From positions 744,001-808,000 of the forward strand of contig WIXG01000002.1 in NCBI GenBank assembly GCA_009869945.1: a stretch of 64,000 bases of DNA. The letters run 5' to 3'. A model generated the notes under the pieces. That model ran no database searches. It saw nothing but the letters and a program-made list of their open reading frames with translations, and was not told the origin of the DNA. Shown here piece by piece: positions 19,072 to 46,800 of the stretch. The translations under genes and the position numbers were made by a program. The first letter of the stretch is position 1. Every line of letters starts with the position of its first letter. The DNA comes from Mesaphorura yosii. Taxonomy: Eukaryota > Arthropoda > Collembola > Poduromorpha > Tullbergiidae.

Positions 19072-20897
19072 ATGGCAGCGACGGGTAGTACGCAGGTATA
19101 TCTTTTACGTCTCCTTACGTCAGCTTGGAGTCTTTGTGACAATCTTAGGAAACCACATATTCATGTATCCGATTTCATTTGCAGAAAGCTATAGATTTAG
19201 TTACAAAGGCTACTGAAGAGGACCGCAACAAGAATTATGAGGAGGCTATGAGACTATATGAACATGGAGTTGAATATTTTCTACACGCGATTAAATGTAA
19301 GATGGCGATCAAATTAATAGTTGGAAATTCGCCGTATATACTATCTTAAGAAGTGTCTTCTTTCTTGCCATTCTCTAGATGAAGCACAGACTGAAAAGGC
19401 AAAGGAAACGATTAGGCAGAAGTGCATGCAGTATTTGGATCGGGCGGAGAAAATCAAAGAATACCTAAGGAAATCAGCCGGAAAAGATAACAAGAAGAAG
19501 CCAGTAAAATCTGGAGAAGCTGGTGGAAAGTAAGGGCCAAGATAAATAATAGATCAGTGCGTATGATACCTATCTCTGTGCTGGCACTGCGATGCCTCTC
19601 CTCTATCTGTCCACTTTTCGGTTTTAGGAAGGATAGTGAAGACGACAGTGATGACGATCCTGAAACTAAGAAGCTTCAAAGCAAACTGGAAGGAGCCATC
19701 GTGATGGAAACTCCAAATGTTAAATGGTCAGACGTGATAGGACTGGAGGGAGCTAAAGAAGCATTGAAGGAAGCTGTGATCCTCCCTATCAAGTTTCCAC
19801 ATTTATTCCAAGGAAAGCGAACTCCTTGGAAGGGAATACTTCTCTTTGGCGTAAGCTGAATTCTAAAGTTATGTCCTTACGATTGCAAGTTGCAAGTTCT
19901 AACATTTTACTGCAACATGAAAATTTCAGCCTCCTGGAACAGGAAAGTCTTTCCTTGCTAAAGCCGTTGCCACTGAGGCCAACAATTCAAGATTCTTTTC
20001 CGTCTCCTCATCCGATTTGGTGTCGAAATGGCTGGGAGAGTCTGAGAAGCTAGTGAAGAACTTATTCGAATTAGCAAGGACACATAAACCATCCATCATA
20101 TTCATTGACGAAATTGACTCGCTGTGCTCTTCGAGGTCAGACAACGAGTCCGAGAGCGCAAGAAGAATTAAGACAGAATTCTTGGTCCAAATGCAAGGAG
20201 TCGGGAACGACACTGAAGGAATTTTGGTGTTGGGAGCGACTAATATCCCATGGGTTCTCGACGCTGCTATTCGCCGACGCTTTGAAAAACGAATTTATAT
20301 TCCACTCCCTGAAGAACAACCGCGCGCTGGGATGTTTAAGCACAATTTGGGCGACACGTCGCACAGCCTAACAGAAGCAGATTTCAAAGTTCTTGCAAAG
20401 AAAACAGAGGGGTAAGCATAAAGCACTTGGTCTCGCGCTCGGGGAGTGTTAAAGTCAATTTTTTCGATCCGATTAGATATTCTGGTGCTGACATCTCCAT
20501 TGTGGTACGCGACGCCTTCATGCAACCTGTAAGGAAAGTCCAAACGGCGACTCATTTCCGTCGAGTACGTGGCCCATCCCGAACGGATCCTTCGATAATC
20601 GTTGATGACCTCTTAACGCCTTGCTCGCCAGCAACCCCAGGAGCCATTGAAATGACTTGGGTTGACGTACCCAGCGACAAGCTTTACGAACCTCCCGTGT
20701 CAATGGTTAGTGGACCGAAGTACTAATTACTAATGTTGATTAATGTGATTAAGAGCAGAGTACCATTGGTTCTAATTCTTTTACATTTTCTACAGAATGA
20801 CATGCTGAAATCGCTTGCTACATCAAAGCCTACAGTTAACGAAGATGACTTGAAGAAACTGAAAAAGTTTTCGGATGACTTTGGCCAAGAAGGATAA
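19072..20897 (+). CDS. VPS4: VPS4, AAA ATPase of the ESCRT pathway
   Basis: Hexameric AAA ATPase that disassembles ESCRT-III filaments during endosomal sorting, cytokinesis and membrane repair. Seven coding exons: 19072-19095, 19185-19296, 19379-19529, 19628-19850, 19931-20411, 20477-20706 and 20796-20897, giving 440 residues (human VPS4B has 444). The N-terminal MIT domain (about 1-77) starts after a tiny eight-residue first exon. An acidic linker ([12 protein letters not shown]) is followed by the AAA core with Walker A GPPGTGKS (Lys176) and Walker B IIFIDE (Glu231). Near the C-terminus are the beta domain and the helix ending [12 protein letters not shown], typical of VPS4. All key residues are present. 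It is head-to-head with LRP1. Confidence 0.97.
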
Positions 20898-21547
20898 AAT
20901 TGCTTTACTACCTTAATCTATTCACATATTCTTCATAATTAAGTATTCTGTATTCGGATCATGTATAATCTGGCAAAATTCCATGAAGTTCATGGCTGGT
21001 AGTTTCTGCAACTTTGTGATGCGAAAGTAACTTTTTAAACGGTTTTGTTTATAATTTTGAGAGTGAACTCCGAAATGTCCACAATGCCTACTGAGTTGTA
21101 ATTGTCAATAATGCTCATTTGCGTATGTGAATGAAATCTATAATAAAGTATCTTGCACTCTGTGTCCTAATCGTGAAAGCTGTACGAGACTTTTAATAGA
21201 TTGTGAAGGTCACACGCAGCCGACTCCAGCTGACATTTTATGAATTGGATTGATGGTCACAATGTTAGGCTTTATAACGCCTCCTACAGCACGTGTGTAG
21301 ACTACCCGTTAGCCACAATGTGCAACTTACAATCTGCAGGGTTAGCTATCGCACACAGCGTATTCATAACACGATAATCGTGAAAGGATCAAGATTCAAG
21401 AGTGTGCGTACTTTATACTGAAATCAGAGCCTACTCTTTGCAATGGACTTAAGAAAGGAGTCAATTCCAGTTTTGTTCAGTTGCATCCAACTGAATTTCA
21501 GTTTCAGTGTTTCAGCCGTTCGCTTGTAGCATTCTAAACCGTTAACA
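20898..21547. other. VPS4 3' UTR and ADH5 upstream region
   Basis: 650 bases without coding exons. The first 250 are probably VPS4 3' UTR, ending near an AATAAA at 21142-21147. The rest should contain the ADH5 promoter; no TATA box was assigned. Confidence 0.6.
21142..21147 (+). terminator. VPS4 poly(A) signal
   Basis: Canonical AATAAA, 245 nt after the VPS4 stop, the first canonical copy seen downstream. Confidence 0.65.
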
Positions 21548-25171: not shown

Positions 25172-27239
25172 ATGGCCAGGATGAAGATGAACAGTTTGAG
25201 TAAGTTAATCTCAAGGCGCAAGGCGCAAACCCGTGCCAGTCGTCTCTATCAACTTTCGCTTTCAGCTTGATTTATTAGCTGCTCTCTGAGTTTGAATCAT
25301 CGCGTTGCCTTGCATTGTTGCATCAATCGTGAGATGAAGTTGTGTGTTTTGCAGTCGCAGTGATCGTGGTTGACGTTGTCCTCGCCGTGGCTATCAAGAT
25401 CAATGCTCATCCGTTGCAAGAGGACACGTCCAACATGGTGCGCATGCGTAATTGTGACATTACCGCATTGAGCATTACATTGTTTGATTGACGTGCTGTA
25501 CGCGCGACTAACGAATATCAATCGAAATGGAAATTGAGACCTTTGCAGTTTCTATTTTTACTTTACACAGGCGAGACGCAACGCAGGCGAGTCGAAGGCG
25601 CCGGCTGTCTTGGATGGCACGAATTTCTACGGTATTTCCCTTTGCATTGGTCAATTGGTCTGCCTCCGCCTTGATGAGTTTGATGAATGAAGGCGAATCG
25701 GGGATTAATTTCTTTTTGTGGTCGATGAAGTGTGGAGTCTGACTGCTTTGCTTTCTCTTTTCTGGGTCGCAGTGCCTGTCCTCTACGACACGCTGATTCG
25801 GGGTGGACAGGTCCTTGACACGGAGTCGAGGACAGTGCAGCGAGCGGACATTGGGATTGTGGACGGGAAGGTGGCGGTCATCTCGACGGAGCCGCTGAGC
25901 ACGGGTCAGGCGCTGAGCGTCATCAACGCTGACGGGCTGTACGTGACTCCGGGCCTCGTCGACCTCCACACGCACGTCTACCACGGAGCCACCTACTGGG
26001 GCCTCGACCCCGAGCCCATCGCAGCCATCACAGGCGTCACCGTAATGCTAATACCCCTCAGACTCATGCGCCTCTCTTGCTCGCCTTTTGTAGTAGTGTT
26101 TGTAGCTCCGTTCTGTTGCTTTGCCGCAGACGTGGGTGGATGCCGGAAGTTCCGGAGCCTACAACTTCCCCGCCTTCAAACGGGACGTGATTGAGAAGAG
26201 CTCCGTCCGTATCTTCGCCTTCCTCCACATTTCTGGCATCGGGTTGACGGGCCGTACATTCGAGTCGTCGGTGGTGGACTTCCTCGACCAGGAAATGACA
26301 AACGTCACCATTCAGGAGAACAGGGCGATCATAAAAGGTATCAAAGTGCGAATGGACCGTGACTCTACGAACGGAACCGGGGTTTTAGCGCTGGAGAAGG
26401 CTGTTGAGGTGGCGGACTTTAACGGAGTGCCCATCATGACACACATCGGCTTCGCTCCACCGACCTTACCGGAGATCGTTGCCCTCATGCGTCCGAACGA
26501 CATTCTCACCCACGCGTTCAGCGGACACACGAACCGCCTCGTCGATGAGGCCGGGACTCCGCTGCCCGTCGTGCAGCAACTCCTCAACAAAAACATTGTG
26601 CTGGACGTCGGCCACGGCGGAGGCAGCTTCAGTTACCATTCTGCAGAGGGCCTCATGGCGGCCGGCGTGTTTCCTGACGTGATCAGCTCCGACGTTCATC
26701 AAAGTGAGTCTCCACTCTCTACCCCAACGTGCTCCTTTCGGTGAATATCGAATTCTTAACTATCGCCTTTCAATTCACGAGGTTCTCGACTCGGGCCGAT
26801 GTACGACCTGCCGACGACCATTTCCAAGTTCCTCAACATGGGAATGCCACTCGTGGACGCAATCGCCAAGTCGACGATTGTGCCTGCACGAATCCTGAAG
26901 GAGGAGTCACTAGGAGTGATCAAGGTCGGACTTCCGGCAGACATTGCCATCTTCAGACTCGAGAACGGCGAGTTTACGTTCAGGGACCCGCACGGCGAGG
27001 AACGAGTCGGAAGTTTCAAGCTGACAAACACGCGTGAGTGAAGAAACTTGGCATTGTATTTGCATTCTAATTATGCATTAAGTGCTGACGCTGAAGCTCT
27101 GCTCTGCTGCTCGACAGTGACGATGGTCGACGGAGTCCGCCTGGAGAGGAAACGAGAGGCTGGGCCTTCAGCGTGGATTCTGAGGGATTTGGACCTTATT
27201 TCAGGCAACGACACCAAAACGACTCACAACGAACTCTGA
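25172..27239 (+). CDS. Secreted amidohydrolase/deacetylase of the COG3964 (Atu3266-like) family
   Basis: Metal-dependent hydrolase of the amidohydrolase superfamily; bacterial relatives act on small N- or O-acyl compounds, but the substrate here is unknown. Seven coding exons: 25172-25199, 25355-25437, 25571-25631, 25773-26041, 26130-26703, 26782-27033 and 27118-27239; 462 residues. Residues 9-27 (LIAVIVVDVVLAVAIKINA) form a signal peptide or anchor absent from the bacterial enzymes, encoded by exons 1-2. All superfamily metal ligands are visible: HTH (His123, His125), the carboxylated-Lys site IKVR (Lys219), MTH (His252), LTH (His275) and SSD (Asp335). TWVDAGSSGAYNFPAF and YDLPTTISKFLNMGM are hallmarks of COG3964. 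This family is mainly bacterial as far as I know, so transfer is suspected; introns show it is a resident gene. Confidence 0.87.
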
Positions 27240-33513: not shown

Positions 33514-36500
33514 ATGGCTTCGATGGCCAAGCAGATGCAGTCGAGCAAGTCGTACCAGTACTCCTCTTCCACCGGCGGCGGCGGAGCGGACGTGACCATC
33601 GAGTACACAAACGTCCACAGCATGTCGAGACTCGAGGTAAGAAATTCTTAAGTATTTTTATCGAGAGATCACCTGTAAATCAGCCAGCAGAGGAATCTGA
33701 GCTGGAACCGGAACAGATCTCCGATATTGGTCTCAATCCATGTCGACGTCCACGCAATTGCCAGCCCGCGTCATTCTCATTTCATTTCAAACGATGGAAT
33801 TTCAAGGGCGGAATGCGCTGCACTCGCTCGGGCATCTTAGAGTCCAACCAGCCTCATTAATGACGTGACGTGGCTGGTGGGTTGCGGTGTGTCAAAAATT
33901 GTGAGACGTTCATCCGCAGTGTTCAGTGTTCGCTGCGCGTTCATTAACGAGAAGACCTTAAACTACTTTTAGAAATATTTGTCTACTTCTGCCTTCTGCT
34001 ACTGTCGTGCCAGTGCCAGCTTCTTTCCTTTCCGCTTACGTATGCGCGCTTTAAAGTCTACGAGCCGAGATAAAAAAAACAGGCAGGAATCGGAATTTGG
34101 TTCATCTCAAACGAGCCCAACGATCTGCGTACGTAGTAAATGCAAAATGCATGGGCAGAGCGGAGGAGATTCAATCTCTCAGGCGCACGAGCCAGCTCGA
34201 ATCTCCTGTTCGAATCTTCTAAATACCAACACCTGTCTCGTGCTGAGTGTTTTTACTCTTTGCTGGAGTTGAGTCTTGGGACAACGGGAAGATTAACGGC
34301 AATGGCATGGCTCCATGCATTTCAGAAGATTCATAAATTCACGGCGACGGTGAGAGCGAATAGCGAAGCTTGCACTCTTGCTTTCCTCGAAACTCATCTG
34401 CAAAAGGCAGGCAAAAGTTGAGGCGTTGCCAACTTTCACGTTGTTTTCTGTACCTTTAAATCTCTTCGTCAATTTCCTCGTCCTCACACGCAGCCTGCCT
34501 GCATCTTATCGAGTCGCTCATCGGAAGGTGGAAACGATACGCTAAACGTGATCACGGTGAATGACTAAAATAATCGCGGCTGAGCAAAGCATCGACGGCT
34601 CCGTGTCCCGTGTCTTTCGTCTTTCGCATTCCAGTCGAGAGTAGAAGCAGAGCGCCCGTCGAATTGATTTCGAGTGTGCAGCCTCACATTTGGCGATTAG
34701 GCGATTCACTTGCTCTAAAATAACGCACGACTCTTCTGCCGTCGAGTGTCGAGTAAACTGAAACCAAAGCTTCATGCACCATGCGAGTCATAAACAACAG
34801 AATCAACACACAGACTAACGTATCGCGTTTGTTGTGCAGATGCCAAAGGAGATTAACTTAACTGTCGATCTCTCGATCTGCAATTCTGGAGAATACTAAT
34901 GCCTTCAACCCATGCTTATGATTATTCTTGTCTTTGCAGGACAAAATTAGGCTTCTACAGGACGATTTGGAGTCGGAACGAGAAATCCGCCAGCGGGTAA
35001 GACGCGACACACAAATCTGCAACTGTGTGAAATTAATTAAATATGAAATTGGGAAATTAGAAAGAGGGTGAATTAGAATTCAGGGGCAATTCGAGCTGAG
35101 CGCTTGTGTTTAGTTGGTTAACATTTTTCGTTGGCATGCGATTGGAATGCAGTCTTAATGCGCTGAACGTGTGTTCAGTGATTTGCACCAAATCACGGCC
35201 GACGGCCGGTGCCAAGCCGAGGCTCTTGTGTGCTAATAAATTGGATCACGCAAACGAGGTTAACAGTCGAAAATTTGTTTTATTTTTAAAACACTACGCA
35301 GACTCGGCCTGAAACGAGTCTTGACTCTTGACTCACGCTCCGAATCTCGCTCTCCGATTTCGTAATGACGCTCATAATTTATTGCTTAGGCAGGCGTTGC
35401 TCGAACTCGAATTAAGATGACTCACATAATTTCTGTTTGCAGATCGAACGCGAGAAGGCTGATTTGAGCGTGCAGGTCATTCAGCTGCAAGAGCGACTGG
35501 AGGAGGCTGAGTGCGGCGTCGAGGGACAAGTAATGACTCACTCTCCACCGATTCGATGACCGACTGGCTCAAACTTGCCTTGTTCTTGTCCTCTTCCTAG
35601 TTTGAGATCAACAAGAAACGTGACGCCGAGTTGGCGAAGCTGCGTCGTCTGTTGGAGGATGTGCATCTCGAGTCGGAGGAGACGGCCACCGTCCTCCGCA
35701 AGAAGCACCAGGAGGCCATCATGGACTACCAGGACCAGCTCGACCAACTCGCCAAGGCCAAGTCAAGGTGCGAATTGCGAATGGAATGCCACTGGCACCT
35801 TTGGAGTAGGGAATTGTGATTCAGATTCCATTGCATTAATCGAGTTTCCTCTCTTTCAGGGCTGAGAAGGAGAAGCAGAAGTTTCAACAAGAAATTTTTC
35901 AGCTAATGAGTGATATCGAAAACATCAACAAGGACAAGGTGCGTGAAACACAAACAATGATATAGCTGCTGATTCCCCAGATTAAATGATGATTAGCAAT
36001 CGTTCTTGACCTGAGAGACAATGATTTTCGATTAAATCGATCAAGCATATGAATTCTTTCTCTCACTCGCTCGCGATGTGACATGATGATGATAGATACA
36101 GAAATTAATAAATTCGATCTTTCTCTTTTGCCCGCAGTTGATGAGTCTGAAGCAGGTTGAGAAGTTGGAAATCACGGTGCACGAGCTAAGCATCAAGATC
36201 GAGGAGCTGAACCGGACGGTTATCGACGTGCAGTCGTCGAAGCAGCGGATTTCGCAGGAGAACATTCAGCTGACGAAGGAGGTGCAGGAGCTGAAGGTCT
36301 CCATCGAGAACATCACGTACTTGCGCTCACAGGTCATCACGCAGCTGGAGGAGACGAAGCGGAGGCTGGAGGACGAAGACCGCCGTCGGGCCACGCTCGA
36401 GAGCCAGCTGCACTCCGTCGAGATGGAGCTCGAGTCCGTCCGCGTCCAGCTGGAGGAGGAGGCCGAGGCGCGCCTCGACCTGGAGAGACAGCTCCAGAAG

Positions 36501-39500
36501 GCCAACGCCGATGTATCGCTCTACCGCTCCAAGTACGAGTCTGAGGTCCAGGCACGCGCCGAGGAGGTCGAGGATATCCGCAGGAAGTTCCAAATCCGAA
36601 TCTCGGAGCAGGAAGAACAAATCGAGGCGCTTCTCGCTCGGCTCACCGCACTCGAGAAGCAAAAGTCGAGGCTTCAGAGCGAAGTCGAAGTCCTCATCAT
36701 CGACTTGGAGAAGGTGACGCAGCACAAACACTAATTAATTAATTAGCCAAAGCCAACGAACAGAAGTGAGAGCTGTAAATGTAAACTTGTCAAATTACAG
36801 GCGAATGGAACTGCTCGGGAATTGCAAAAGCGAGTTGACCAACTGGACCGCCTCAACGCTGATCTGAAGGGTAAATTGGACGAACTTGCTGGACTGTACG
36901 AAGCTGCTCAACGAGACAACCGGGTCAAGGCCCAGCAGATTCAGCAACTCACTCACGAACTGGACAAGACTCGTGAGCAGAAGGACTACTTGACCAGGGA
37001 GAACAAGAAACTCAGCGGTGAGTCGGATTAATCGATTAATTGACCGGCCACTGGCGCACTGGAATAATTTGCAGAAGTACTCATAAAACTAGCAACAAAT
37101 TAAACTAATTTGTGGCAGATGACTTGCACGAAACCAAGAATACGCTGGCCGACATCAACCGTCGCTATCACGAACTGGAACTCGAGTGCAGACGGTTGGA
37201 GAACGAGCGAGAGGAACTGAGCGCCGCTTACAGAGAGGCCGAAGCCGTAAGTTACCAACTCCCTTTAATTAAAAGGAAGACAGCACGAGCAAGGAATTAA
37301 TGCGATCGATCGTTTGACCTGCGCAGGGACGCAAGTCGGAGGAGGCCCGGGCACAACGGCTGTCTCAGGAGCTGGCTCAGTTCCGCCATGAGGCCGAGCG
37401 CCGTCTACAGGAGAAGGAAGAGGAAATGGAGGCATTGCGGTAAGATTTCCTATTTATTTGACTGTTTTTGTGGAAGTGAGTAGTCGGCCAGTCGGAGTGA
37501 TCCCTCATCCTTGACCAAAATTCGGCCCAATCAATCGAGGATTGTTAGCCTGTCTGTTTTATGGGCCATGTGGGGTTCTGTGGTCATAACTCATGTTTTG
37601 GACCACTCGTGCTTTGCATTCCCACTTTTCTCAAGAGTGAACCTTGCCTGTGCCCGGCCGCCGAGACATTGAAAAACATACATTTTTCCTCTGAAATCTT
37701 GAAATCTCGGCAAGGATCCGTGACGGAAACCTTGACGTGAACAAATTATTAGACACTCCACCGTTACGTTATAAGTTGTTTGAATGAAATTCGGCACTAC
37801 TGGCAGGCCAGAAGACTAGAGCATCATCGTGTATAGTTTATAGTATCAAGATTACGTAATTCTGGCTGTAATGTTCGATTGAGCATGAACGGAGGCAGCC
37901 CCGCTAGAATTATTTATATTTTTAGCTTCTATTTTTTTTTAGAGAAAAGTAGTCTATTCAATTTTAGTTGGCACCGAGCAGTGAGCATCCAAAAGACAAG
38001 AACTTGACTCCGATCCGCTTGACATTTTATTTTTGTATCCTTTTCCGTTCTCAAAGTTTCAATGCATCGTCCTACTTCTACTACAAACTTCCATTCGGGC
38101 TCCGCGCGGCTGGTGAAGATGAAAATGGATGCTAGATTAGACACTTTGCATTTGCTATGAGCTTGTATCAAACTGACACATTTCATGTTGTAATGAGGCC
38201 GTCTCAAGCATCACATCTGCTCTTGTAAACGCAACGCAACAAGCGTTCATAATTTGTAATTCTGGAAGAATTCCGTAATTGTTCCTCATTTGCACTTGTG
38301 AGTCGCAAATCGCGATGCTGGCCATTTTCAGACAGAAGTCGTGTGAGTGTTGTAATAATTAGAAAGCGACTGAGTTAAAAATGGCTGGTTCATCGTCCGC
38401 GATGGCGCTCATCGCTGCGAGCCGGTGGGATTCCCGTGCACCAGCACCAGCTTCGGGCCCTGGCGGGCCGCGAGCCCTGCACACGGCGACCTACGAAGAC
38501 AACTTCAACTTTGGCTTCAGTGTCTACCAGCCAATGATTGACTATTTGGACAAGAAGCTGTCTAACATGACGACGAGTGACCCAGGCGCCGCCAGGACAA
38601 ACGGAGACGAGGAACTGCCGCACTTGCCCTTCTCCGACGAAATCGGCCTCCTGGACAACCGACCTGTGCGAAGAGTTAACTCGTACTCGAAGCGGGAGCT
38701 GGAGAGCTTCGTGAGGGCGGCTGACGAAGACAACTGGCAGAGGCAGGACGGGCTGGGCCGACGGGCGACGTGCACTCCAAGCACGCGCCACCTCCGTCGA
38801 TGGAACATCAACCCGTTGTCGGGGTCAAGCAGCTGTGGCGACCTGAACACTCAAAAATACACAGGGTTCAGAGTTGATGGCCGGGCGAAACTGACGAGTG
38901 GAAGCAAGAGTCCCGGTTCAGGGCTCTCGTCGCAGTATTCAATGAGCAAGGAGAGCATCAAACAAGCCGTCATGTCCACTTCACCGACCATCAACGCACT
39001 GAGAGAGAAAAGCAGAGAGATCGCGAGTCAGAATCTGACGAGGGCGAAGATGTACTCGTCGCCCACCTCGTCCGACCCGAGCGGAGTCAGGAAGTCACGT
39101 TCCTTCGGTGCTTTCACCGCCACGGAGAAATCTGTCAGAGATTTCGATTTTGACACGAAAATGACATACAATAAACCGGTGGTCGTTCAGGCTTCGGCCA
39201 GTGCGAATTCAATAAACAAGAGTTTGAGTTCTGTCGTGGCAGCCAGAAAGGTTCACTTTGAAGGAAGTGCGAGCTCCCTTCCAGCAAAATCCGCGTGGTC
39301 CTCGCCTTTCTCTGACATTCAGAGACGGCAGCGCGTAGCCAGTTTAGAAAGTCGAGGAGTCGGGGTCGTGACTCCGAGCGACTCAACTGAGACGGAAGCT
39401 CTCAGAGAGCAGTGGTAAGGAGTGGGTAGATTGTGAAAATGGGTTGGAACATAAACATTTGACCACGGACCTCATAAAACTGGAGCTTCAGCTCAATGGA

Positions 39501-41710: not shown

Positions 41711-42186
41711 AGCAAACCTCTTTAACTAATGACCGAAATCTTATCGATCAGTTTAAACAGTTGGAGTTCTGGGCCGATCTCAATGGCAATTAGTTATCGA
41801 AATGAAACTTCAACTACCACAGGCATGCATAAATCTTGTAAAAGGCCCGACCAACGTGTTGAACCGCAAATCATGAGAACGTTAAACCACAACGCAACGG
41901 AGGTGAATAGCATCAAGCATAGTTATCAAGTATGTGAGAGTTCAAACGCGGCATAAATATTTATGCTCACAGTTCACAGAATCGATTCTTTCTTGTTTCT
42001 TGTCCGCAGAGACGAAACGTAAACAATAAATCGGATACACGATACGATACGAATCTGTTCAGTTTACATTTACGAGGCTGTCTGTGACTGTAACGATTGA
42101 CTCCTTCTCTGGATGGAATCTGCCGATGTGATCAAACCATTTTAGATCTATTCATGTGAGTCGGTGCTTCCTTTTGAGTTCTAAGA

Positions 42187-43290
42187 ATGGTGTGTGCCGT
42201 GATTGAGACGATGCGCTCCCTGACGACGTTGTTCAGTGACCTCTGCCCTTTGACCTTGGTGGTGCTCTTGCTTTTCCTAATTCCACTGGCAATATTTTTG
42301 TATTCCCGGACAAAATCTGCTGACCTGACTCCGCCAAAGCAAGGGCAAGTCTCCTTCGAGAGTCTGGTGGCAACACAATTCAGCGACAGCTGCTCGGTGA
42401 ATTGGCCGTTGGCAGCCTACAACAGATTTCGGGTAGGTGGAAACGCCGACTTCTTCTTTCGCCCGGCAGATCTGCAGCAGCTACTGACGCTGCTGAAAAC
42501 GAAGCCACGAAGAATGAAAGTGACACCGCTGGGTCTGGGTTCCAACGTGCTGATCAGAGACGGAGGCGTGCCTGGCCTCGTCGTCCAGATCCTTGGGCGT
42601 GGATTCGCACACTTCGAAGTGATCAACGACCCGTCGGTTGGCTCAAATGCAAAGGTCGTCGAATGCGGCGCAGGAATTTCCCAATTGAAGTTCGCCAAGC
42701 TCTGTGCCAGGGCTGGAATCAGTGGCCTAGAATTCTTCTGCGGAATTCCCGGAACAGTTGGCGGTGCACTTCGCATGAACGCTGGAGCTCACGGAACGGA
42801 AGTGAGTGACTGTTTGATTGGCGTAAGAGTCGTGGATCCGAACGGAGGTCGCGTGCACGAGCTGACGGTGTCGGAGATGAAGTACTCGTACCGGCATTGC
42901 GGATTGCCCGAAGACTGGATTTTTGTGGGCGCCCGATTCCGGGGCGACTACCTCGTCAAGTCGCGGGAGGAGATCGAGAGTACGATCGACGAAATGATGG
43001 ACTACCGGGCGGGCACGCAGCCAGTGAACGAGAAGACGGCGGGCTGCACGTTTACGAATCCCCCAGACTCCGACTCCGCAGCTTGGCAACTGATCGCTGA
43101 GGCAGGTTGGCACGGTAGAGCACTCGGCGGGGCTCAGGTTTCTCCAAAGCACTGCAACTTCCTCATCAACACGGGCTCTGCCTCGGCCGAAGACTTGGAG
43201 GCTTTGGGAGACTCTGTCCGGGAAGACATCGAACGAAAGACGGGAGTTAAACTTAATTGGGAAGTGAGACGAATCGGCATTCGATTGTGA
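42187..43290 (+). CDS. murB: MurB, UDP-N-acetylenolpyruvoylglucosamine reductase, membrane-anchored; likely horizontal transfer
   Basis: FAD/NADPH enzyme that reduces UDP-GlcNAc-enolpyruvate to UDP-N-acetylmuramate in peptidoglycan synthesis. Single exon, 367 residues. Residues 21-39 (PLTLVVLLLFLIPLAIFLY) form a hydrophobic anchor followed by RTK; bacterial MurB proteins lack it. The FAD domain (about 75-255) has NRFRVGGNADFFFRP, PLGLGSNVLIRDGG and CGIPGTVGGALRMNAGAHG. The MurB C-terminal domain has AGCTFTNP and ALGGAQVSPKHCNFLINTG. Active-site matches are Arg236 (YSYRH), Cys287 where most have the proton-donor Ser, and Glu359 (NWEVRRIG). It lacks the type I (E. coli) insertion, and the last 100 residues look most like alphaproteobacterial MurB. 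Animals normally have no peptidoglycan pathway. The neighbours are animal genes, so contamination is unlikely. What it does in an animal is unknown. Confidence 0.93.
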   Translation: MVCAVIETMRSLTTLFSDLCPLTLVVLLLFLIPLAIFLYSRTKSADLTPPKQGQVSFESLVATQFSDSCSVNWPLAAYNRFRVGGNADFFFRPADLQQLLTLLKTKPRRMKVTPLGLGSNVLIRDGGVPGLVVQILGRGFAHFEVINDPSVGSNAKVVECGAGISQLKFAKLCARAGISGLEFFCGIPGTVGGALRMNAGAHGTEVSDCLIGVRVVDPNGGRVHELTVSEMKYSYRHCGLPEDWIFVGARFRGDYLVKSREEIESTIDEMMDYRAGTQPVNEKTAGCTFTNPPDSDSAAWQLIAEAGWHGRALGGAQVSPKHCNFLINTGSASAEDLEALGDSVREDIERKTGVKLNWEVRRIGIRL

Positions 43291-43379: not shown

Positions 43380-43385
43380 TTTATT
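43380..43385 (-). terminator. Poly(A) signal overlapping the stop codon of the EB-like gene
   Basis: AATAAA whose first A is the last base of the TGA stop (43387-43385). Cleavage 10-30 nt later would fall between 43350 and 43370, leaving a 3' UTR of a few tens of bases and a gap of about 60 nt to the murB stop. Confidence 0.7.
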
Positions 43386-43840
43386 CAATTGCCAGCAGCC
43401 GGACAGCAAATGCGGGCGCTCGCACTTGTGAGATTCAACGAACTAGCCAGACCGTCGTTCACGTCGGAGCAGACCGTTTTTTGCACCGCCTGGAAGCCAG
43501 CAACGCATACACACTGCGGGGACGGATTTCCAAGCTCATCCGGGAGGTTCAGGCAGACTGCATTGTCGACGCATTCGAGGAATTTGACGTCTATATCCAA
43601 ATCACACATTTTTCCGACTGTAGACAGACACTTCGACTTGTCTTCGTTGTAAATCATCCATGAGTAAATGCACGAGCACTGGCCGCCGAGGCAGGTGGTG
43701 GCGGTGGACGGGTCGCACTCCCACGTGTCGCTGCAGAAGTTTCCGAAGGACTTCAGGCTCAGGCGAGCCAATGGTGATGAGGGAGCAGCAACAAAAATCA
43801 GGAATAACAGAAGCGCCTTGATCAGCCTGCAGTCAGCCAT
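43385..43840 (-). CDS. Secreted Cys-rich EB-module-like protein
   Basis: Single-exon frame of 151 residues starting at ATG 43840. A strong signal peptide (IKALLLFLIFVAAPSSPLA) is followed by about 14 cysteines in an EB/EGF-like pattern: CSDTWECD, CLGGQCSC and a later CVDNAVC with PQCVCVAGFQ. EB modules occur in secreted proteins of nematodes and arthropods, often in tandem. Function unknown; extracellular. Convergent with murB, with 94 bases between stop codons. The GxCxC-type spacing supports a real protein, but no close relative is recognised. Confidence 0.78.
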   Translation of the reverse strand: MADCRLIKALLLFLIFVAAPSSPLARLSLKSFGNFCSDTWECDPSTATTCLGGQCSCIYSWMIYNEDKSKCLSTVGKMCDLDIDVKFLECVDNAVCLNLPDELGNPSPQCVCVAGFQAVQKTVCSDVNDGLASSLNLTSASARICCPAAGN

Positions 43841-46800
43841 TGCAGGACAACAATTCTGAATGCAGCAACACCTGCGACCAGTAGTTAATTCCTAATCATC
43901 CTAAAATGATGGAGTATTTATTTTAAAGAGCCAGGCAGGCAGACAATTAGTAAAATTTCTCTCTCGCCAAGGCCGAAGGCCCGAGACTCTTCGAGATGGA
44001 AATGCGCGCGAATAACACACCATTGAATATTGATATTTCTCAACATGAACTGAATTTGTTTTGTTGAACAGTTGCGCTTGGGTGACTTGACTGGGTTGTT
44101 GATGAGAAGCTGATGGGGAAATAATACAGCTCTAACCGATTATGCAATAAAGTAAAGTTCATCATCATCATCGTCCTCACTCACATTATTCAGGCTTTCA
44201 TGAGTCTAGGCACACACACAGCAGGGTCGAGCAGAGCGAAACAACAACGAGGGTGGTTTGGTTGGAATTGGAAGGGAAGCGTGCCCGAAAAGAGCATCGC
44301 TAGTACAGGCGCAGCGCAGGTAGAACGCGATGTAATTATCCTCTTTCATCCCCACACAAATATTTGGCCATAAACACAATTCAGTCAATTCGGTGCCTGA
44401 CTTTCATTGAGCCGCACGACGAGGGGAGGTTTGGGTCGTCGCCTGGGTCTCGCGACGTGAGAAAAGTCAGAAAAGGTTTCCAGTTCGGGGTTACTCGTTT
44501 GGCGTTTGTATCACTTTTCAATAATTCGGAATGAATAAAACAACCTACAACGCATGCGAAGAGTCAGGTCGGTTCCCAGCAAGAGCGGCCACGCGACTCG
44601 GGAGCACGGCGTTAATTACTCCGACCCACGGCTGGTCTGGAGTGCAGTGCAGCTAAAAATGGCCTTGTTTCCAAAAGTCAATAATGCACTCGGTCGATGG
44701 GTCGACCGGTCGTCGGTGCAATGCTGCTGCAGGACAAGAAACGCACGCAATCGGCACGCGACTCGACTCCGAATTGTCCGAACGCAGGAATATACACTTC
44801 AATAGCGACGGTGACCTTTGTTCGATGTGTGTTTAGTTACTGTAAACTGAAATAAGGAAACAACGTCCCAAGTTCCCAGTCTCATTTTACCCCAACCAGC
44901 CGTTATTTAGCGAAATCCACAGCCAAGATTCCGTTTAGACTTTCTGAAATTCGTCAAGTCATCAGCTCGTCTTTCCTAGTTTATTTTCTTGTTCTATTGA
45001 ATTGAAATATAGTATTGAAAAATTATAGAATTTAAATTAAAAATCGTTGTCTGCTTTCTGCAGTCGAAACTCTGCGCAATTTTTCCACGACCACGACCAT
45101 CAAACAATCAAGAAATGTTGGAAGAAGCACGGCGCGCCGACGCCACCGTGGCCGGAGTGAAAAGTGAAATATTGTCTTGAGGGTTGCGAGGAAGCTTGAA
45201 GGCGAGAGCGCCCAGTGGGGCGTCGGTCGTTATCTCCCACTTTCACCGAACGCGAAAGCGAACGCTCGCGCCCTGCCAAAGAATAAAGAAGAGAAACACA
45301 AACACTCTGTAATACTGTAATTCGGTCTATTGAATCAAAATCAGAGTCGATACTTCCCCGTGTCTTTGCCCGTACGTGCGTGTGTGTGCTGTGAAGAGTA
45401 GAAAACAAACTCTGTAACATTTCAATGAAAAATCGGCGTACATCGCCCGATTTCAGGCTGTGACGTCTCCACTTTCTCGGCGTCGATTTTGTTGTAGTGC
45501 AGAATGGAATTTGGGAATTCCTTCTTGGGTAGAATGCGTAATTCAGGGCAATTATGGTTACAAGCCTACTGAACAAGTTGAGCGTGTTGCAAGTTACACG
45601 ACACGCGCGTGTGGTGTAATTCGAATTGCTCATTTTCTTTCGGATCGTATCGCAGTCGCAGTCGCCACAAAGCTATCAGATTTCATGCCATTCTTCAAAT
45701 GCTCACTTGACATGAATGCAGCCTTTGAATTGGTTCGTACTCGCGTTTTCAGCCGAATCGCTTCTCGAACGGGGCACGAAAACTGAAATTGAAGACAGGT
45801 TCCTCGATTTCAGCTTTTTCCATTGCGGATCGCGGCGCGGGACGAAAGCATTCACGTTCAGCCTTCGGAGAGAAAACCTGCCTCGATAAGAAAATGTGCC
45901 TGCCTGCCCGCGTCATGGTCGTATCACTGTGCCTAATGCGCTGTTGACATGAATCGAGACTGGAAACTCAAATATCAAATTCAAAGTGCCTAAACTTCTT
46001 GGAACAATTTCCACCACATTCTCAAGCATATAATTAGCCCTCATTTTCGCCAAGACGTGGACGGGTGGCCGACCGACCCAAAATTGCAGTCGAAGTCATT
46101 TGGATTCTGGCTAATTGCTAATTGCGTTCCACGCCGTGTGTGTGCCAGTTGCCAGTTGTCAACTGCGAACAAGAAACAATCCAAACCGGCACTCGCACGA
46201 GGTTTCGCGTTCGCGTTTCATGTCGGCTAATTTGTAATAAAGATCGAGCGATAGGAACGCGAACACGAGTCTTTCGCCGTTCTGACTTCTTGTGTCGTAG
46301 CCCGCAATTATGAGTTGTGCATAATCGTGCTATAATTTTATTCACTCGCAATTAAATACTTAGTAGTACGAATTTCGGAACTTGTAAATACGTTTGTTGT
46401 GTGCTCGGGAAGGAAAAAAGTCGTTGTAGTTTCCGCATGATTTCCGTACCCGTGCGAAAGCGTTTATAATAAGAAAAAAAGAAGCGCGAGAGGAGAAAGT
46501 AGGCTGCAGTGCCATTATAATAATAATCTAATGTAGTCGCAATTGGCAGGCAATTACGGGCGAGAGCAATAAAAGAAAGTGGCAGAGAAAAAACAGCCAG
46601 CGAAGGCGAAGAGAGCGGGCGGGCGGAGTCGGAGGCTGGGTGGAGTTGGCATTCAGTATTCGGCATTTGGCCTGCTTTGAGTCTCTACTGTTTTACGGCT
46701 CGGCTGCTGCTGCTGCTCGTTGTGTCCTCGCGTCTTCATTGGAGAGAGGGCGAGGGGTGGCCCTCCACAGAGTCGGGCAACAAGCGCGCACGGGAAAGCG

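Follow-up and report, generated by a model that had tools for sequence, protein, structure and literature searches.

How an arthropod chromosome comes to carry a gene of bacterial cell wall synthesis, and what such a gene could be doing there, is the question raised by a single open frame in the genome assembly of Mesaphorura yosii (93.0 Mb, 1127 contigs). Peptidoglycan synthesis is regarded as missing from animals. We analysed the 64,000 nucleotides around this frame (C2:744001-808000, hereafter the window) and searched the whole assembly for partners of its product.

Identification of MurB

The frame is intronless, 367 codons long (42187..43290, + strand) and encodes a type II UDP-N-acetylmuramate dehydrogenase, MurB. 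It runs from ATG to TGA with no internal stop, the nearest in-frame stop upstream lies at 42175, and the start codon has an A at -3 and a G at +4. Two Pfam domains were found well over their cut-offs, FAD_binding_4 (42448..42855, + strand, residues 88-223; 61.7 bits, cut-off 26.4) and MurB_C (42970..43275, + strand, residues 262-363; 107.5 bits, cut-off 27). The NCBIfam models NF010480 (329.6 bits, cut-off 259) and TIGR00179 (172.9 bits, cut-off 144.5) matched as well, and five further MurB models of NCBIfam matched under their own cut-offs. Taken together the domain and family scores are far beyond chance. An AlphaFold model built on a 44-row alignment had a mean pLDDT of 92.0, and when it was submitted to Foldseek the best PDB match was Brucella ovis MurB (9dtk; TMt 0.86, rmsd 1.5 A), with rows 1-18 among the 50 listed all being MurB structures. 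There is no reasonable doubt that the product is a MurB, for which the predicted activity is the NADPH-dependent reduction of UDP-GlcNAc-enolpyruvate. The whole-genome search returned this one murB match. A preliminary description of the locus had proposed an intact 367-codon MurB frame without introns or frame breaks, with FAD-site and C-terminal motifs and a GGAQVSxxHCNFLINTG region, and our open frame, domain, family and structural data bear out all of these points.

Active site and membrane anchor

The catalytic set of MurB is present. The Arg R236 (codon 42892..42894, + strand) and the Glu E359 (codon 43261..43263, + strand) are invariant in the 44-row alignment; we take them to be the equivalents of R159 and E325 of E. 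coli MurB and assume the catalytic roles of both. The position of the catalytic Ser, S229 in E. coli, is occupied by a Cys, C287 (codon 43045..43047, + strand). Ser is found at this position in 192 of the 196 MurB proteins collected, and Cys in P0001 (the window protein) and in P0002-P0004, which are 48-54% identical to it. Cys287 need not abolish activity, since type IIb MurBs likewise employ a Cys as proton donor, as stated in parts of PMC3689657. The window sequence differs from type IIb in being closest to the Ser-type alphaproteobacterial enzymes, so that its Cys looks like an independent change. With alphaproteobacterial MurBs such as that of Brucella ovis (9dtk, 40% identity) and of a Holosporales MAG it shares fold and domains, and its top bacterial matches are about 45-52% identical, but it departs from them by the Cys in place of the proton-donor Ser and by an anchored N-terminal extension of about 50 residues.

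This extension contains one hydrophobic helix (42247..42318, + strand; residues 21-44 in the AlphaFold model), the top 19-mer being residues 19-37 with a mean KD of 2.83, and the helix looks like a membrane anchor. P0002 (2.62) and P0004 (2.12) have a clear anchor in the same arrangement, and P0003, which starts with V, retains only the end of the hydrophobic stretch (1.47). Among the 192 other MurBs the highest N-terminal hydropathy was 1.77 and two reached 1.6; both of these peaks of at least 1.6 (residues 35-53 and 52-70) belong by eye to the catalytic domain. Positive residues directly follow the helix of the window protein, which by the positive-inside rule suggests that the catalytic domain faces the cytosol. 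Since the Cys and the anchor recur in proteins of only about 50% identity the system looks old, and P0002-P0004 suggest a set that is not restricted to one species.

The precursor pathway

The preliminary description had been right about a horizontal transfer into an animal, but its reading of murB as a lone gene does not stand and is ruled out by six partner genes elsewhere in the genome. Whole-genome searches detected open frames for MurA, MurC, MurD, MurE, MurF and a D-Ala-D-Ala ligase (Ddl). MurA (C87:6939-8390, - strand, 483 aa) scored 422.4 bits against TIGR01072 (cut-off 392.7). A search for the Mur ligase family gave four matches on four contigs, C439, C1, C331 and C49, assigned by NCBIfam to MurF, MurE, MurD and MurC respectively. 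The spliced 559-aa frame of MurC (C49:57251-59004) reached 382.1 bits (cut-off 335.1) and MurD (C331, from a first ATG at about 19601 to 21136) 304.7 bits (cut-off 211.95). MurE (C1:67192-68853) scored 351.9 bits against TIGR01085 (cut-off 257.3) and 414.7 against the narrower NF001124, whose cut-off is 476, and MurF (C439, with its first ATG at about 43827 and its end at 45359) scored 276.7 bits against TIGR01143, just under the cut-off of 288.6. Ddl (C2:872216-873421) passed NF002378 (261.2 bits, cut-off 243) and stayed under TIGR01205 (211.8, cut-off 245.65); its gene shares the 883-kb contig with murB, at a distance of about 86 kb. As judged from their sequences the seven enzymes together span the route from UDP-GlcNAc to UDP-MurNAc-pentapeptide, and the predicted gene set stops exactly at the Park nucleotide. 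The completeness of the seven-gene set is strongly supported.

Alignments to solved structures showed the expected motifs to be kept in all seven enzymes. These include K22 and the PGGC loop of MurA, the nucleotide-binding loops of the ligases and the E, S and Y motifs of Ddl, all of which we take to be functional sites. The DNPR of MurE, presumably the DAP-type motif, is shared by all 120 MurE matches listed.

Several features of these genes are noted in their own right. MurA (L002 1453-2904, - strand) has 483 aa where the aligned MurA chains have about 420-430, with the extra stretches in the C-terminal half (residues ~310-420). MurE (L011 1111-2772) and the protein P0197 read GKGAE where 117 of the 120 matches listed read GKGHE; P0221 also has Ala at this position and P0279 gave no pattern match. 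Third-position G+C is 0.64 in murB and 0.70 in ddl, both on C2, versus 0.45-0.56 in the other five genes. One protein of a Logan contig, P0149 (608 aa), combines a MurB domain with a D-Ala-D-Ala ligase domain in a single chain according to precomputed Pfam annotation. Two further candidates were rejected, namely a second EPSP_synthase place (C146), which is of the AroA type and not a MurA, and a second Ddl_C match (C551, 42.6 bits), an ATP-grasp protein left out of the count. The latter adjoins a frame that by eye is methyltransferase-like (C551, L015 1144-2181 and 2123-3022, + strand).

Chromosomal setting and intactness

The murB gene lies 3' of a myosin-tail exon (36138-36734, Pfam Myosin_tail_1) which we take to be paramyosin. 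On its other side a small, secreted-looking Cys-rich frame of 151 aa (43385-43840, - strand) converges with murB at 94 bases from the murB stop codon, and a Pfam scan of this frame gave no match. Besides the myosin tail, window frames passed the Pfam cut-offs for LDL-receptor class B repeats and an AAA ATPase, and others stayed under the cut-offs for an alcohol dehydrogenase, an LDL-receptor class A repeat and an LRP2-like EGF; an Rfam scan of the window found no match. The 883-kb contig with its animal-type frames thus agrees with the preliminary description, which had set murB in an animal chromosome between these same two neighbours. Across the genome we counted 66 stretches matching the cuticle domain Chitin_bind_4, presumably an arthropod-typical family, and none in 14 prokaryote controls, which points to an arthropod host; a search for COX1 gave no match.

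On the other contigs, frames flanking the Mur genes include TRAPPC9 (C439), V-ATPase subunit a (C331), CLCA and DUF389 (C1) and CBM_14 (C87). Several flank frames scanned gave no Pfam match, as did the two scanned beside MurC on C49, so that the naturalisation of MurC rests on its intron. This intron of 74 nt has GT-AG borders (L013 1431-1504), falls within the GTHGKTT nucleotide-binding (ATP-binding) motif and is a strong argument against bacterial contamination. The other six genes are single open frames in which no intron was seen, as would be expected if bacterial genes had been stitched into arthropod contigs by contamination or misassembly. We regard such an origin as extremely improbable. 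The seven genes are spread over six contigs, five of them with recognised animal-type neighbours; the window has no Ns (46.5% G+C); and the G+C of the seven genes (0.44-0.57) is within the range of host exons (0.41-0.58 in eight exons). The spliceosomal-type intron of MurC, the animal-type neighbours and the absence of all bacterial marker families searched led us to reject contamination. The genes are nuclear and naturalised in an arthropod.

Genes transferred from endosymbionts are often dead, and the seven could be inactive remnants of an ancient transfer from an endosymbiont genome. This is hardly credible for the present set. At 0.3 neutral changes per site 12-22 stops would be expected per gene, yet all seven frames are open, which argues for selection, and motifs are retained at about 50% identity. 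The selection on murB that the preliminary description had presumed is likewise inferred from residues kept at this level of identity.

Steps absent from the genome

The penicillin-binding transpeptidase family PF00905 had no match genome-wide, and therefore no contig of a walled bacterium is evident. MraY was not found by PF00953, whose two matches both lie on C226, where the frame tested as MraY matched DPAGT1, the host member of the same Pfam family. MurG was not found among the 36 matches of PF04101, of which two were tested and 34 are weaker or partial. The best of them (C38) is ALG13, and the one with the widest domain coverage (C144) belongs to a frame of more than 900 aa, of which it forms an ALG13-like part. 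This long open frame (C144, L020 706-3441, + strand) has by eye an ALG14-like start and a further glycosyltransferase-like stretch.

Glutamate racemase (MurI), DapF and the alanine racemase C-domain (Alr_C) had no genome match either. The same six families were matched in 8-13 of 14 control genomes, showing that the searches work, although six-frame family searches of this kind can miss genes cut into many small exons. That the bacterial genes searched for are absent makes an admixture of a walled bacterium's genome to the assembly less likely, and no symbiont signal was seen in it in the form of a bacterial PBP, MraY, MurI, DapF or Alr.

A lack of MurI, DapF and Alr_C would also fit enzymes that process pieces of peptidoglycan from the diet or from gut bacteria, for salvage or detoxification and not for de novo synthesis, as digested bacteria would provide D-Ala, D-Glu and DAP. 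Against this stands the presence of MurA and MurB, which make new UDP-MurNAc from UDP-GlcNAc and which salvage does not require. We consider this explanation improbable.

Origin of the genes

The four Cys-type MurBs formed one clade with support of 100/100 in both a 59-row and a 61-row tree, and this clade grouped with two further proteins (98/92 and 97/90) among alphaproteobacterial-type matches. The trees were built from high-scoring matches only, with neither a deliberate outgroup nor a plastid sequence. P0002-P0004 were the top three of the 120 relatives listed in both MurB searches. By title, 75 of the best 80 GTDB loci are alphaproteobacterial, one is Micavibrio and four are unspecific, in a search whose patterns and best-80 selection favour close relatives; the Micavibrio locus is filed under Bdellovibrionota in the tree labels and was counted as alphaproteobacterial in the title reading. 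When the four MurBs were placed singly a starred set was obtained for one of them only, and for this reason we speak of an alphaproteobacterial type of MurB and no more. For MurE, all seven of the matches listed with an organism name are alphaproteobacterial. MurE pairs with the JGI protein P0197 (100/98, on long branches), and each of the two moves when placed alone. P0166, a MAG protein labelled Verrucomicrobia, groups at 100/100 in the 61-row tree with two matches labelled Alphaproteobacteria and Proteobacteria and its label was taken for a binning error.

The data thus support an assignment of MurB and MurE to an alphaproteobacterial type as judged from their closest matches, with no order claimed within the class, and a horizontal origin of the genes is strongly supported. 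Named matches and MurB trees agree here with the transfer from an alphaproteobacterial-type source that had been proposed at the outset. The protein search and phylogeny suggested along with that proposal returned alphaproteobacteria and the P-numbered proteins as nearest rows, and no plastid or ancient eukaryotic placement in trees that held no plastid sequence. Nor did cyanobacterial or plastid ancestry appear among the named MurB and MurE matches, which are alphaproteobacterial or unspecific save for the Verrucomicrobia-labelled P0166. Viral contigs gave 44 pattern matches, none of them a relative.

Possible function and comparison with known systems

We know of only one animal with a whole precursor pathway, the mealybug. 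According to parts of PMC5664097 the host genes of Planococcus citri comprise murA-F and ddlB besides mltB and amiD, and a table there traces its transfers to several bacterial genera. In passages of PMC12176269 Candidatus Moranella endobia encodes the last precursor steps and host MurF is found in the Moranella cytoplasm; a signal peptide of about 20 aa is predicted for this MurF, and the host enzymes are described as helping to build the symbiont wall (parts of PMC5664097 and PMC12176269). The mealybug comparison made in the preliminary description was apt, since our genome contains the same seven genes, likewise of bacterial origin. MraY, MurG and the transpeptidase were not found in the host here by the searches above, which for MurG covered the two tested of the 36 PF04101 matches. 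The two systems differ in the alphaproteobacterial relatives of MurB and MurE in the present genome, in a MurB that is predicted to be membrane-anchored where P. citri MurF has a signal peptide and reaches the symbiont, and in that no symbiont was seen here. Despite the identical gene set it is very unlikely that the window represents the published case of a mealybug or another sternorrhynchan, since 93 Mb and a window G+C of 46.5% do not fit mealybugs, the P. citri transfers have several bacterial sources, and P0002-P0004 at about 50% identity suggest a wider and older group.

By analogy the seven genes may well serve a host-symbiont peptidoglycan mosaic as in the mealybug and Moranella; this is the explanation that we favour, with some reserve. 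The precursor set would then probably serve to nourish bacteria inside the animal or to keep them under control. The acquisition of the genes would lie far back in time, and the donor of MurB and MurE at least would be an alphaproteobacterium that was plausibly intracellular. The host would contribute the wall precursor or the enzymes that make it, and its partner bacterium would provide D-Glu, D-Ala and meso-DAP, take up the product or the enzymes and carry out the lipid-linked and polymerising steps. If the host is without D-Glu, D-Ala and DAP, the ligases would have no substrates. MurB, held at a host membrane by its anchor and with the catalytic domain toward the cytosol, would reduce UDP-GlcNAc-enolpyruvate with NADPH/FAD, Cys287 replacing Ser as proton donor. 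An anchored MurB facing the cytosol suggests precursor synthesis that takes place, in part or in whole, on a host membrane, and we speculate that this could be one around the symbiont. No signal peptide was obvious in any of the seven proteins (judged on the N-termini by hydropathy and by eye). The other six lack a comparably hydrophobic start from their first Met; in MurD a hydrophobic start lies upstream of the first Met.

The same observations could be read as a complete pathway that serves the animal itself, with UDP-MurNAc or its peptide form as a metabolite, as a decoy or as a unit that an enzyme such as DPAGT1 would transfer to a host lipid in the making of a glycan. Neither a symbiont signal nor import signals were seen, the anchored MurB domain is probably cytosolic, and DPAGT1, of the MraY Pfam family, is present. 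However, a bacterial wall accounts better for the retention of Ddl and of all four ligases, with a MurE of the DNPR (DAP) type and no source of D-amino acids found in the host. We know of no precedent for such a use by an animal, and we hold this explanation to be rather unlikely.

More broadly, it is possible, and we put it forward tentatively, that a lineage of non-hemipteran arthropods has a host-run soluble precursor pathway on the cytosolic face of a membrane, from which the nucleotide and not the enzymes would be passed on to a wall-building symbiont or organelle. Such a pathway would have been retained through a deep radiation, with an origin independent of the mealybug mosaic and perhaps much older. 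Returning to the host-symbiont mosaic, a second arthropod with the same seven genes would, if true, mean that the cytosolic half of wall synthesis is taken over convergently by hosts and would point to an undescribed obligate symbiosis. With a MurB and MurE of alphaproteobacterial type and an anchored MurB, the evolution of host control over the symbiont wall would become testable by comparison.

Two other eukaryotic systems invite comparison. In the plastids of plants and mosses, as described in parts of PMC9434261, Mur enzymes encoded by the eukaryote make a wall around a former bacterium. The likeness lies in eukaryote-encoded Mur enzymes; our genome is that of an arthropod without a plastid, its MurB and MurE are of alphaproteobacterial type, and MraY, MurG and PBP were not found. 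Aphids, symbiont-bearing insects, possess amiD, ldcA and rlpA, genes of bacterial origin for peptidoglycan metabolism (parts of PMC9116674 and PMC8689515). These recycle or modify the wall, whereas the set found here makes the precursor. An animal Mur pathway outside sap-sucking insects was not seen among the literature matches listed, with preprints and most subscription journals lying outside this scope; the word 'peptidoglycan' did not occur in a tardigrade genome paper, nor 'muram' in a 2026 paper on gene fusions in arthropods. The paper on the present genome may already report the Mur genes.

Some further loci deserve mention. Amidohydrolase frames in the window (25718-26744, + strand) score just under the Amidohydro_3 cut-off (29.3 bits, cut-off 29.7) and resemble bacterial deacetylases by eye, the second frame being without a match; this is possibly another acquired gene. 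Contig C146 carries shikimate-pathway genes, which are unexpected in an animal. They consist of a fusion of dehydroquinate synthase and type I dehydroquinase (L007 5270-7234, - strand) and, divergent from it, EPSP synthase exons with a shikimate dehydrogenase (L007 7990 to L008 1661, + strand), the latter being near the AROM type (193.5 bits, cut-off 196).
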